This document shows, piece by piece, positions 7,066 through 11,670 of a DNA stretch of 13,618 bases. The notes under the pieces were generated by a model. It was not told where the DNA came from and ran no database searches. It saw only the letters and a program-made list of their open reading frames with translations. Position numbers and translations under genes: made by a program. The number at the start of each line of letters is the position of its first letter. Positions within the stretch are counted from its first letter, which is position 1. The stretch is from Thalassiosira profunda (taxonomy: Eukaryota > Bacillariophyta > Thalassiosirophyceae > Thalassiosirales > Thalassiosiraceae): the NCBI GenBank assembly GCA_036939355.1, contig JALLAP010000366.1, positions 1-13,618 on the forward strand, in the 5' to 3' direction.

Positions 7066-10000
7066 ATGTTGCGCCTGAGTAGTAGAGTCAGCGGCGCGGC
7101 CCTCTGCGGAACGATGTTGATGCTGCTTCGATCGGCGTCGGCGTTTGGGGCCCGGCGCGTGCTGCCGCGATGGGCGTCGGCGGCGTCTTGCAACCAGTGG
7201 CAGCTCGCCTCCAACAGAGGCTACCATCGCAGCGCGTTATTGGCATCTGCAAAGGCTCCCAACGTAGAGGTATCGCCCTCGGATCACGGCACCGCGCCCC
7301 TCTCGAGCTTTGATCAATCGGGCTCCATTTTGGACGGCAGACTTGTGAAGACGTTGCATTTGCGCAATAACATTACTGAACCCACGCCCATCCAATCGCA
7401 TGCGTTGCCGCTGCTATTTAACAATTACGATGTCATGGCGTCGAGTGCCACCGGTTCGGGAAAAACGCTGATGTTTGCCCTTCCCCTTTTGAACCGGCTA
7501 TTGGCGCTTGGCAAGAATACACCCGGCAAAAACATGGGTACGCCATCAGCGCTGATCATCGCACCAACGAGAGAGTTGGCAGTGCAGACAGCCGGGGTGT
7601 TGGATGGGTTCGCGAAGGAGGGCCTTCGTGGAAAGATTAATGTTTGCTCAGCCACTGGTGGGTCCGATTCGCGCAATCAAAGGCAACAGCTGCCGGGGTG
7701 CAACGTTCTAGTCGGCACGCCCGGGAGAATTTGCCAGTTTCTGGACGAGAGAAAGCTCACTCTGCAGCAAGTGAAGTATCTGGTCATCGACGAGGCCGAT
7801 CGTTTGCTGGATCTAGGATTTGAGCGGGAGCTGGGCAGGATTGCGCGATCGTTCTCGAGAGACAACCAAAAGCAAAGCGTCCTGTGCTCGGCCACCTTCC
7901 CTCAGGGAGTGCAGCGGTTGGCGGCCGACTTCTTGGATCCCAGCTACTACTTTGTCAGCGTCGGAAAGGTGGGAGGTACACATGCGAGCATCGCCCAAAG
8001 CTTTGAGTGGGTGAATCTTCCCCGTGGCAATGCCCCAAATGGCAACAATCCAAAGGTCAGCGCGGTACTGAGAAATGTGCATCAATTTTGGGAGAGCAAT
8101 CCACCAAAAGATCAATCGAGTGTGATTGTCTTCTGCAACACAAAAGATGGTGCCGAGTTGTACGGCAAAGCGTTGTCCAACAAACTGGGCTCAAAGAAGC
8201 GAGTAGTGCGCGTTATTCATGGAGACAAGTGAGTTGTTGGAGGTTGCCGGCGGTTGTACGAATCAAGTGTCTTCTTGTTGCACACACAGTACTAATCTTT
8301 TCAACCTTGGCGATAACAAAGACCACAGGCAGAGAGAAATCGAGCCTTGCAGGACTTTAGAGATGGGAAAGTCTCTTTGCTGGTTGCCACTGATGTGGCT
8401 GCTAGGGGCTTGGACGTCACCTCGATTGGTCTTGTGTTGCAAGCCGATTCGCCGAGAGACGTTGACACCTACACGCATCGAATTGGGCGGACGGGAAGGG
8501 CGGGTAGAAGTGGTCGGGCATTAACGTTGATCGACCCGAAGAGTGGTTTAGGACTTGCGTCTGGTCTGGTAGATTTGTTATCGGATGCTGGCCTGAACGA
8601 TAGCATCCCATCGTGGCTGTTGGGGATGAGTCACATTGCAAATGCCCGAAACTTGGAAGAGGATATGCAAATTCAGGCAGGGTCTGTCGGGGCACAGGCT
8701 GATGCAGGGTCTGAGCACGGGACTTCTGACGTAACGAATGACGAGTTTTCGCATCAAGACTTCCGCCGGACGGCTGCGAAAGACTCGTATGGGCTGGGCA
8801 AAGACGACAGCTATCGTACTTTTGAGGAGGAAGCCTACAGCACCGATACGGGCATTTCAGCAGCCATTGAACGGGACGTCAGTGAAGATTTGGGTGACGA
8901 TTCATCCATTTCTACCTCGTTGGATGGTGAGATGGAAGCCGCCAGCAGCCTTGAGGGCGAAACGACAACTCCATTTGAGCGAAAGGAGCCCAGCAAGAAG
9001 CTCACGCAGGCCTTGGTCGAGATCAGTGGCACTCCTGATGTTGGAGAGAACCCAGACAAGTCCATTTTGGACGGTCTTGCGAAGAGAAGCCAGGTCCTGC
9101 GGTTCGAGTACATTGGCTTGTTCCCGTTCCACATGGTTTCGGAGATGCTAATGACTCGCTCGTCGAGCAACGCCAATAGTGACCAAGCGACGATCCTTAT
9201 GGTAGCAGAGAAGCCGTCCATCGCCAAAGCTATAGCTGACGCTCTCAGTTCAAAACGAGGTCCGAGGCAGCGCCGAGGCATATCGCGAGCGCTTCCGGTT
9301 TATGAGTTTACGACCGACAGGTTTGGGCCGACCAACGGGGAACGGTGCACCGTCAGAGTAACGTCTGTTGTTGGGCACATTTATTCCCTTGGCTTCGACT
9401 TTGGCCAGAATAATGACACGCGGAAGGACCCACGTGACTATTTCAGCTTGCCTGTCACCAAAAAGGAGGAGAGCACCAGTTCCAAGTTGCGAGTCGTTGA
9501 TCACCTTCGGGCTTTGGCTGGGGACAGCGATCACTTGGTACTTTGGCTTGACTGCGACCCAGTGAGTATAGATGCCGAGCCATCATCTCTGTGAGAGACA
9601 TGCATTCTAACGCTACTTTCTTCGCTGACAACCCAACAGGAAGGAGAAAATATTGCACATGAAGGTATGGTACTTGCTTCATCGCTCGGTACTGTATACT
9701 TGACCTACCGTTCTCTCATCCGTGTCTGCCCTGTCCCTAAGTCCTTGCGGTGACGCGGAGGGCAATCCACAGCAATGTCGCATCGAGCGGTGACGATACC
9801 AATCGAATCCACAGAGCAAAATTCTCAGCCATTAGTCCATCTGCAATTCAGGACGCGTTCCGATCACTCGAAGAGCCGGATCCAGTCCTCTCGCGATCGG
9901 TGGATGCGCGCCAGGAACTCGACCTAAGGATTGGTGTCGCCCTCACGAGGCTGCTTACGTGGCGGTGCGTGAATGTTGCTCGAAAGCGTTTCTCGCCGTC

Positions 10001-11670
10001 GACCCGCATGATCTCCTACGGGCCTTGCCAGGTGAGCAGCTGCACCGCCAATGAAGCCCTGCACTTATTTCAGCAGCATTTGACAACAACGCATTGCTCT
10101 CGTTTTTCAGACGCCGGCACTGTCATTCGTCTTTGATCGGCTCAAGGAGATCGAATCATTCACCCCAGAACAGTACTGGAAAGTGCAGGTGGACGCCAAA
10201 TTATCCGACGGAAAGAGCTACCCGCTCAATTGGAGCGTTCCGGACCACCATGCCGTGGTTGATACGAGAAGCAAAACCCAACAGAGCGAAGCTTGTGCTA
10301 CGTTTGACAGGGAGTCAGCGATGGATATCGTCAAACGAGCGAAAGGCTCCGATCTCGTTGTGAAAAACGTGTCGCAATCCTCCGAGTCCATCAGTCCTCC
10401 GGTTGGTTTGAACACGGTTGCTCTGCTGGAGGCCGGCTCGAAAGCGATGGGCATGAGTCCAAAACAGGTGATGAACGTTGCAGAGAAGCTGTACTCAGCC
10501 GGTTTCATTTCATATCCGAGAACAGAGACGACTCGCTATGATCCCAATGGCTTCGATGCTCGTGCAATGCTCAGAGACCATAGCAACCACCCAGACTGGG
10601 GCCGGAGTGCATCCTACTTACTGAGAGCAAGAAAGTCGAACAAGCCGCCGCGACGCGGAAAGGATGCCGGAGACCACCCGCCAATCACACCGCTGAAATC
10701 GGCAACACGAGAACAAATTGGCGGGGGCGCTGCGTGGCGGGTCTACGATTTCGTCGTTCGCAACTTCATCGGCTCGCTCCATAATGATCTCGTCATTACG
10801 AAATCGCGAGCGTCGATTGGTTTGCCTGACAGCAGCGAGCCAGAGTTCGGCCTTGAACTCGTTACAGTCGATTCGCTTGGATTCTCAGATTCGTGTAGAT
10901 GGGTGCTGAAGGATATTCGCGCAGTACAAGGCAAAGTCGACATCAATAGCCTGTTGACGGAAGGACAGCGTCTAAAGATCACAAAGGCAAATGTTGAGGA
11001 GAAGAGAACGAGACCGCCTCGATTCCTTCAAGAGCACGAATTGATACGGCTGATGGACAGCAATCGCATTGGCACGGACGCTTCTATGTCAATGCACGTG
11101 AGCAATATTGTGGACCGCGGTTATGTGATGCTCTGCGACGAAACGGGGGTCCCTCTGCGGCCACCTCGTCCTCCCGGCCAGCGAAGGCCCAATCAACCGC
11201 GCCAAATCGGACGATACATGGTGCCGACTCCGTTAGGCGCCAGTCTTCTCGACTTGTTCGACCACGATGCCTCGGTGGACGACGTGGCCTCGCCTGCCAT
11301 GCTATCCCATCCATCCATTCGAAGGCAGATGGAAGAGGAAGTCAAAGAAATTGCCCTGGGAAACATCGACAAGGAGTACTGCCTCGAGAAGAATTTGAGT
11401 TGGTTCGAGGAGCGGTACGCCGAGCTGGAGCGGAGCCTGACGCGGGATCGCGTGGGCGAATTCGGGAAGGGTTTGGTAACTGCGAAGAATCACTTGAAAG
11501 GGCTGGAGAAACTGGGAGCCTTCGAGCCAAAAGTGGCCGCAGCGAATGGCAGGCAACAGCCGAGGAAGAAGGGAAACAGGAAAGGTTACGGCTCGAGAAG
11601 GCCAAGCTACAGGAAGCAACAGGGCAAACGAGGCCAGAATCAGAAGAGAAGGAGCAAAGTGAAGCAGTGA
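7066..11670 (+). CDS. DEAD-box helicase fused to TOP3-beta-like type IA topoisomerase (5 exons)
   Basis: Exons are 7066-8228, 8337-9561, 9640-9664, 9742-10031 and 10111-11670, giving about 1,420 aa. The leader resembles a plastid pre-sequence (RSASA|FGARR, A26|F27), though a mitochondrial one is possible. Helicase motifs are Q (PTPIQ, Q110), I (ATGSGKT, K133), Ia (PTRELA), TPGR (218-221), II (DEAD, 242-245), III (SAT, 275-277), HGD (385-387), V (ATDVAARGLD, 405-414) and VI (HRIGRTGR, 435-442). An acidic linker (about 490-650) leads into the topoisomerase: MVAEKPSIAKAIA (676 on), TOPRIM DCDPEGEN (793-800), SVDARQELDLRIG (857 on), catalytic Tyr1036 in FISYPRTETTRY, and RIGTDAS (1220-1226). These match TOP3-beta better than TOP3-alpha. 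The tail (about 1370-1420) is Lys/Arg/Gln/Gly-rich with no zinc-finger cysteines. The enzyme should unwind and strand-pass nucleic acid, probably RNA and/or DNA in an organelle. The intron 1 acceptor is uncertain. Confidence 0.88.
8229..8336 (+). other. Intron 1 of the helicase-topoisomerase gene (acceptor uncertain)
   Basis: The donor GTGAGT follows the HGD motif. A branch-like TACTAAT lies at 8290-8296, and the first AG after it is at 8327-8328 (CCACAG). That acceptor shifts the frame by one. The frame-compatible acceptor is the AG at 8335-8336, but it removes most of the expected Q-x-x-R segment that is visible just before it (CAG GCA GAG AGA). Confidence 0.55.
9562..9639 (+). other. Intron 2 of the helicase-topoisomerase gene
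   Basis: A 78-nt GTGAGT...CAACAG intron in phase 0 splits the TOPRIM motif between DCDP and EGEN. Without its removal the frame hits a stop at 9592, and the conserved EGEN glutamates would be lost. Confidence 0.93.
9665..9741 (+). other. Intron 3 of the helicase-topoisomerase gene
   Basis: A 77-nt GTATGG...CCTAAG intron in phase 1. Splicing joins HE-V to LAVTRRAI, continuing the topoisomerase core. Together with intron 2 it leaves a 25-nt microexon (9640-9664). Confidence 0.88.
10032..10110 (+). other. Intron 4 of the helicase-topoisomerase gene
   Basis: A 79-nt GTGAGC...TTTTTCAG intron in phase 0 with a clear pyrimidine tract. Splicing joins SYGPCQ to TPALSFVFDR, a conserved junction in type IA topoisomerase III. 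Confidence 0.94.

Follow-up and report, generated by a model that had tools for sequence, protein, structure and literature searches.

Does a diatom genome encode a helicase and a type IA topoisomerase as one polypeptide, and if so, where did the joint come from and what might the protein do? The question is raised by contig JALLAP010000366.1 of Thalassiosira profunda (assembly GCA_036939355.1), positions 1 to 13,618 of which were analysed and are called the window here. A single spliced gene occupies positions 7066-11670 of its plus strand. Read directly and re-spliced, the gene has five predicted exons and four GT-AG introns, and its spliced translation gives a predicted product of 1,425 residues with no internal stop. 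The order along the protein is a presequence, a DEAD-box helicase, a long linker, a TOP3-beta-like type IA topoisomerase and a basic tail. The window thus encodes a helicase-topoisomerase fusion in one predicted protein, as the original prediction, made from the letters of the window, had proposed; the gene model, the order of Pfam domains and homologous fusions all support it.

Splicing was inferred from reading frame, splice signals and homology, and all features below lie on the plus strand of the spliced model. Exon 1 (7066..8228) encodes the presequence, a conserved VEVSPSDHGT box, the first RecA-like (DEAD) domain, which matches PF00270 at residues 107-284 (3.7e-43), and the start of the second. 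Following intron 1 (8229..8321, 93 bases), exon 2 (8322..9561) is a single open frame that runs from helicase motifs V and VI through the linker into the beginning of Toprim, with Pfam matches to Helicase_C (PF00271, 1.1e-18) and Toprim (2.2e-5). This frame is open across 1,240 bases; it contains 0 stops, whereas the alternative forward frames contain 27 and 12, and none of 5,000 mononucleotide shuffles was open over an equal length. The exon had been predicted at 8337-9561; its content in one frame stood, and its start had to be moved. The corrected acceptor before 8322 restores HGDKPQAER, an instance of the conserved HGDxxQxxR motif that loses five residues when the exon begins at 8337, and among the in-frame acceptors tried 8322 alone keeps it. 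Because exon 2 starts at 8322, the catalytic tyrosine previously numbered Tyr1036 becomes Tyr1041. Exon 3 (9640..9664), a mere 25 bases between intron 2 (9562..9639, 78 bases) and intron 3 (9665..9741, 77 bases), completes the Toprim sequence D-C-D-P-E-G-E-N (D798, D800, E802) when joined to exon 2. Exon 4 (9742..10031) encodes topoisomerase domain, and after intron 4 (10032..10110, 79 bases) exon 5 (10111..11670) encodes further topoisomerase domain (PF01131, 1.1e-65), the basic C-terminal tail and the stop.

Searching proteins of fusion length with the topoisomerase part as query returned 1,082 matches from 7,987 scored candidates, of which the best 120 were used; the full protein set numbered 326 (325 fetched plus the window's). 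Helicase motif VI followed by a Toprim motif was found in 76 of the 326, with two distinct spacings: 216-293 residues in 52 proteins, including the window's own at 234, and 68-69 residues in the remaining 24. We refer to the long-linker set as clade A and to the short-linker set as clade B. An assembly accident was considered and is ruled out by 51 further proteins that show the long-linker arrangement, so the joint is not peculiar to this assembly. One of them, P0039, comes from a 2.04-Mb contig of T. profunda and is 85% identical to the window protein in the helicase, 82% in the linker and 96-97% in the topoisomerase over the part present. Numerous diatoms share the domain order, as do two red algae. 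Among the matches listed, diatom fusions come from Thalassiosira exigua (P0004), T. profunda, Cylindrotheca closterium and Seminavis robusta, and P0013 is presumably the Pseudo-nitzschia fusion, judging from its label Psemu1. The red-algal fusions are those of Porphyridium purpureum (P0081, 940-kb contig) and Rhodosorus marinus (P0052, taxid 101924), the latter with an incomplete first RecA domain. Both domains also stand in records of three other species, P0026, P0048 (taxid 265537, Entomoneis paludosa) and P0052, which are MMETSP records that we take to be transcriptomes. Clade B comprises Hydra vulgaris (for example P0069, LOC100215195), symbiodinian dinoflagellates and unnamed records. The automatic database name of P0037, 'superfamily II DNA/RNA helicase/DNA topoisomerase IA', already covers both halves. 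Two diatom fusions, P0021 (1,762 residues) and P0037 (1,732 residues), have in the precomputed Pfam column an additional NFACT-R RNA-binding domain (PF05670), which in P0021 is C-terminal to the topoisomerase (1634-1726) and scores 28.9 bits, just below the cut-off of 29.8.

As had been predicted, the DEAD-box motifs and the topoisomerase catalytic residues of the window protein are intact. The helicase half has the complete set of motifs Q, I, Ia, Ib, II, III, IV, V and VI, among them the Walker A motif I TGSGKT (residues 129-134, 7450..7467) and motif II DEAD (residues 242-245, 7789..7800), and PF00270 and PF00271 exceed their cut-offs. Seven motifs checked across 17 clade-A rows were each found in 15 to 17, the misses including variants and P0052, which is incomplete at its start. 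Searches against solved structures with exon 1 were led by the vasa-like DjVLGB (2e-48) and DDX3X (7e-45), and the helicase of P0001 matched DDX3X best (4e-76), followed by vasa (4e-66) and DBP2 (2e-55). Stand-alone helicases among the 120 matches listed are 37-41% identical to the window, and DDX3X, RH37 and RH52B are the nearest named ones. In the helicase tree, whose stand-alone rows were found with the same query, the window helicase falls on the DDX3/vasa side on its own long branch, apart from DBP2/DDX17 (100/99). Together this points to a helicase half from the DDX3/Ded1 side of the DEAD-box family.

In the topoisomerase half, the type IA residues are E684, D798, D800, E802, Y1041 and R1043, with the catalytic tyrosine (SYPRTET, codon 10513..10515) aligned to Tyr336 of Xenopus TOP3B (P0116). 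Counterparts of D117, D119, E121, Y336 and R338 are kept in all 54 aligned clade-A topoisomerases, and the first Toprim glutamate is kept in 52 rows, the remaining 2 being gaps. By its residues this half is a predicted type IA topoisomerase of the TOP3 branch. The AlphaFold2 model, made for P0004 (1,173 residues, beginning inside the helicase and without the first RecA domain; mean predicted local distance difference test score, pLDDT, 80.4), agrees in fold, with human TOP3B (5gvc) as the best match to the predicted topoisomerase at a template modelling (TM) score of 0.89-0.93 by target length. Identity with canonical TOP3B was considered and rejected: the zinc ribbon is absent, and the topoisomerase of the window falls in a clade separate from animal and plant TOP3B in both topoisomerase trees. 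A Pfam scan detected no zinc ribbon PF23546 in the window protein, P0081, P0052, P0069, P0063, P0001 or P0021 and found it in Xenopus P0116, and no CxxC follows IGTDAS in the window protein and five other fusions. The C-terminal tail is instead basic, with 20 K/R among the last 60 residues. A separate TOP3B gene in the same genome groups with canonical TOP3B (100 in the 92-row tree, 88/84 in the 46-row tree), so the alga carries both enzymes. That gene lies at about 4025-8092 of another contig (C1270, L005) and has a tail that is cysteine-rich and RGG-rich by eye; a PF23546 scan of two pieces of it gave no zinc ribbon despite the cysteines.

We addressed the history of the fusion through the linker and through phylogenies of each half. 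A linker motif, QDFRRTAAKDSYGLGKDDSYRTFEEEAY (8755..8838), has a counterpart in Rhodosorus, and the two linkers are homologous (37 of 133 residues identical, E 7e-9), with QDFRxTA...FxExAY common to both. Just before Toprim, a 71-residue module (8968..9180) forms four predicted helices in an AlphaFold2 model of the module alone (mean pLDDT 88.1); Foldseek against the PDB returned no match for it at E <= 0.001. The larger topoisomerase tree has 92 rows (85 of 188 usable proteins, the window, the alga's own TOP3B and 5 archaeal outgroups), 17 of 205 proteins having been excluded for low coverage. Clade A holds together in it as 20 rows with a Shimodaira-Hasegawa-like approximate likelihood ratio test (SH-aLRT) value of 99, again in the 46-row tree with bootstrap (100/100), and as 17 rows in the helicase tree (100/99). 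Since the linkers of Rhodosorus and the window are homologous, we infer one fusion event in the red-algal and diatom line. The red algae share both the fusion and its linker, which makes the fusion older than the diatoms, not one that arose here as first supposed. From its distribution, clade A may have been inherited with the red-algal plastid; sideways gene transfer could also explain the pattern.

Clade B tells a different story. Its helicases (12 rows, 100/100) join DBP2 and DDX17 at 100/99.9, apart from clade A, and the Hydra helicase is closest to DBP2 (2e-99) and DDX17 (6e-98), ahead of vasa (3e-77) and DDX3X (6e-76). Constraining A and B together was rejected for the helicase-tree set (p 0.020) and was not rejected for an earlier helicase set with poor rows (p 0.067); for the topoisomerases the same constraint gave p 4e-5 with fused proteins only and p 0.052 with unfused relatives of B included. 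Because clade B differs in helicase side, linker length and topoisomerase clade, it is probably a fusion independent of clade A. In the topoisomerase and helicase trees alike, the Hydra group is sister to the dinoflagellate fusions, and this odd animal-alga pairing may reflect transfer between them. TOP3-beta-like proteins with neither helicase nor zinc ribbon in the precomputed Pfam column (P0064, P0082, P0059, P0129, P0132, P0087 and P0143) come from Diplonema, Amoebophrya, Cymbomonas and records that we presume to be euglenozoan. It is possible that they represent a second, unnamed TOP3 subfamily and the source of both fusions.

Where the protein acts is suggested by its first 66 residues (7066..7263), which combine a hydrophobic core, an ASAF motif (A24-F27, 7135..7146) and a basic, acid-poor stretch, the pattern of a plastid signal plus transit peptide. 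The consulted part of PMC4329603 describes the diatom plastid address as bipartite, with a signal peptide followed by phenylalanine at +1 (ASAFAP) and a transit peptide. A conserved ExSPxxHG box near the start was present in 50 of the 326 proteins; in 44 of them, a count that takes in helicase fragments, the box is preceded by 30 or more residues. The hydrophobic core occurs in 34 of the 44, and a small-x-small-Phe site (F motif) follows the core in 30, versus 9.5 expected from shuffles; acidic residues make up 1.9% and basic residues 13.0%. Clade-B N-termini differ in kind. Since its presequence carries ASAF, the window protein is predicted to be imported into the plastid, in keeping with the organellar role first suggested.

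We consider it an even call that this is a plastid-entering protein in which a DDX3/Ded1-side DEAD-box helicase, followed by a zinc-less TOP3-beta-like topoisomerase, strips RNA from R-loops or tangles while strand passage releases the twist. In such a machine, the helicase would spend ATP on the local opening of a short RNA-DNA or RNA-RNA duplex, and the exposed single strand would enter the toroid of the tethered topoisomerase. Tyr1041 would cleave that strand, a second strand would pass and the break would be resealed. We speculate that the long linker and the predicted four-helix module hold both enzymes on one substrate, and that the basic tail does the work of the missing zinc ribbons in gripping nucleic acid. 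The outcome in the plastid would be the clearance of R-loops or RNA tangles, and the protein would be a covalent counterpart of the separate human TOP3B and DDX5, which together resolve R-loops in human cells according to the consulted part of a review (PMC10969213, citing Saha et al. 2022).

Several observations weigh against this proposal. The fusion gene of the species is known here from genomic DNA as opposed to a transcript or protein, the presequence pattern was drawn up once some N-termini were already known, and the gene starts are themselves predictions. The F motif is absent from 14 of the 44 presequences, and it occurs in 21 of the 32 that come from records with a Toprim motif as well; the closest relative, P0039, misses it, having another annotated start and Ser-Leu at that place, as does the red alga Porphyridium, though none is expected there. 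Some presequences finish in R-x-F-S-S, an end similar to the sites at which mitochondrial presequences are cleaved. At the residue between the metal-binding aspartate and glutamate (the D800-E802 site at 9556-9642, which spans intron 2), the usual K/R gives way in 46 of 54 clade-A rows to proline (19) or alanine (27), and this could alter catalysis; arginine stands there in 4 rows, namely both red algae, P0053 and P0054. DEAD-box enzymes are known to open only short duplexes, so coupling between helicase and strand passage is not a given. The need for a further plastid topoisomerase is also questionable, since plastids of the red alga Cyanidioschyzon merolae already have a cyanobacterial type IA topoisomerase and gyrase, as stated in the consulted part of PMC3914683.

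The fusion might alternatively be a plastid or cytosolic RNA topoisomerase that serves structured or knotted RNA, ribosome assembly or translation instead of DNA R-loops, which we regard as somewhat unlikely. The nearest helicase relatives are of the DDX3/Ded1/vasa type, whose subfamilies are known to act on mRNA and in translation, and NFACT-R accompanies two of the diatom fusions (P0021, just under the cut-off, and P0037); against this, the type IA toroid retains its strand-cleaving residues. That the same machine works in mitochondria, or in both organelles, we find quite unlikely: the 14 presequences lacking the F motif, several of them basic and Ser-rich with an R-x-F-S-S-like end, would suit such an address, however, the combination of core and F motif in 30 of 44 resembles diatom plastid proteins as far as the consulted part of PMC4329603 describes them.

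The domain order also invites comparison with reverse gyrase, in which a superfamily 2 (SF2) helicase precedes a type IA topoisomerase, and reverse gyrases do appear in the fold search at rank 38 and below. The term 'reverse-gyrase-like' in the original prediction holds for this order and fails for the sequence: the curated reverse-gyrase model TIGR01054 scores 47 bits versus a cut-off of 471.7 and matches only the topoisomerase part in exon 5. The helicase is nearest to the vasa-like DjVLGB, DDX3X, Ded1 and vasa, a lineage unlike that of reverse gyrase, as foreseen, and the fold matches reach TM scores of 0.36-0.38 by query length with a root-mean-square deviation above 20, a comparison limited by the first RecA domain missing from the model. 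A functional reverse gyrase, with ATP-driven positive supercoiling, is therefore very unlikely. Scarcely credible is the joining of two genes by assembly or faulty gene prediction. Some records keep the halves as separate proteins, maybe on one contig (P0014 and P0220, longest contig 6,600 bases each), however, an intron-blind gene finder would be expected to split the gene in this way, and the fusion, with its conserved linker, recurs across independent assemblies, on long contigs and among transcriptome records.

Returning to the plastid helicase-topoisomerase, we lean slightly towards a broader hypothesis in which eukaryotes welded a DEAD-box helicase to a zinc-less TOP3-beta-like enzyme at least twice and independently, once in the red-algal line (DDX3-side, organelle-addressed) and once in the hydrozoan/dinoflagellate line (DDX5/DBP2-side). 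These would form an unrecognised class of ATP-powered RNA/DNA untangling enzymes with a layout convergent with reverse gyrase, the diatom member serving the plastid genome.

The surroundings of the gene are ordinary. Its neighbours, at 443-5871, 5885-7009 and 12715-13618, encode a sulfatase, a 2-oxoglutarate (2OG)-Fe(II) oxygenase (minus strand), a PAP2 phosphatase, an enoyl-CoA hydratase (minus strand) and a sugar/major facilitator superfamily (MFS) transporter. Three telomere-like TTAGGG/TTTAGGG units lie at 6911-6941, between the enoyl-CoA hydratase gene and the fusion gene.

Compared with known systems, the layout of helicase and type IA topoisomerase on one chain is not new; the lineage and the parts are. 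Reverse gyrase, which the consulted part of PMC10969213 reports from hyperthermophilic archaea and bacteria, likewise places an SF2 helicase before a type IA topoisomerase in a single chain, but the diatom fusion has another helicase lineage, a long linker and a score far below the TIGR01054 cut-off. To the covalent helicase-topoisomerase machines known from hyperthermophilic prokaryotes these genes add a pair of eukaryotic kinds: the first belongs to algae of major ecological importance and has a likely plastid address, and the second includes the animal model Hydra. Among the papers listed by searches of an open-access library aimed at such fusions, none described a eukaryotic DEAD-box-topoisomerase fusion; a description may exist in subscription journals, which were mostly outside the scope of the search. 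Canonical TOP3B of animals and plants shares the Toprim and topoisomerase domains, the catalytic tyrosine and the acidic triad and is the best PDB match in sequence and fold, whereas the diatom fusion has an N-terminal helicase, falls in a separate clade and lacks PF23546, with 0 CxxC motifs versus 8 in Xenopus and grape. The DDX3/Ded1/vasa helicases have the same full DEAD-box motif set but are not fused. Like the window protein, the Hydra and dinoflagellate fusions (for example P0069) place a DEAD-box helicase before a zinc-less TOP3-beta-like topoisomerase; they differ in their DBP2/DDX17-side helicase, their linker of 68-69 residues in 24 of 24 and their N-termini. DDX5 belongs to the DBP2 side, so the clade-B helicase stands on the side of the partner reported for human TOP3B, and the fusions offer natural evidence that TOP3-beta-type enzymes cooperate with DEAD-box helicases. 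The human partnership (Saha et al. 2022, as cited in the consulted part of PMC10969213) also pairs a DEAD-box helicase with TOP3B and acts on R-loops, but it consists of two non-covalently associated proteins, and the diatom helicase is of the DDX3 side. On a single chain, the coupling can be tested without reconstituting a complex.

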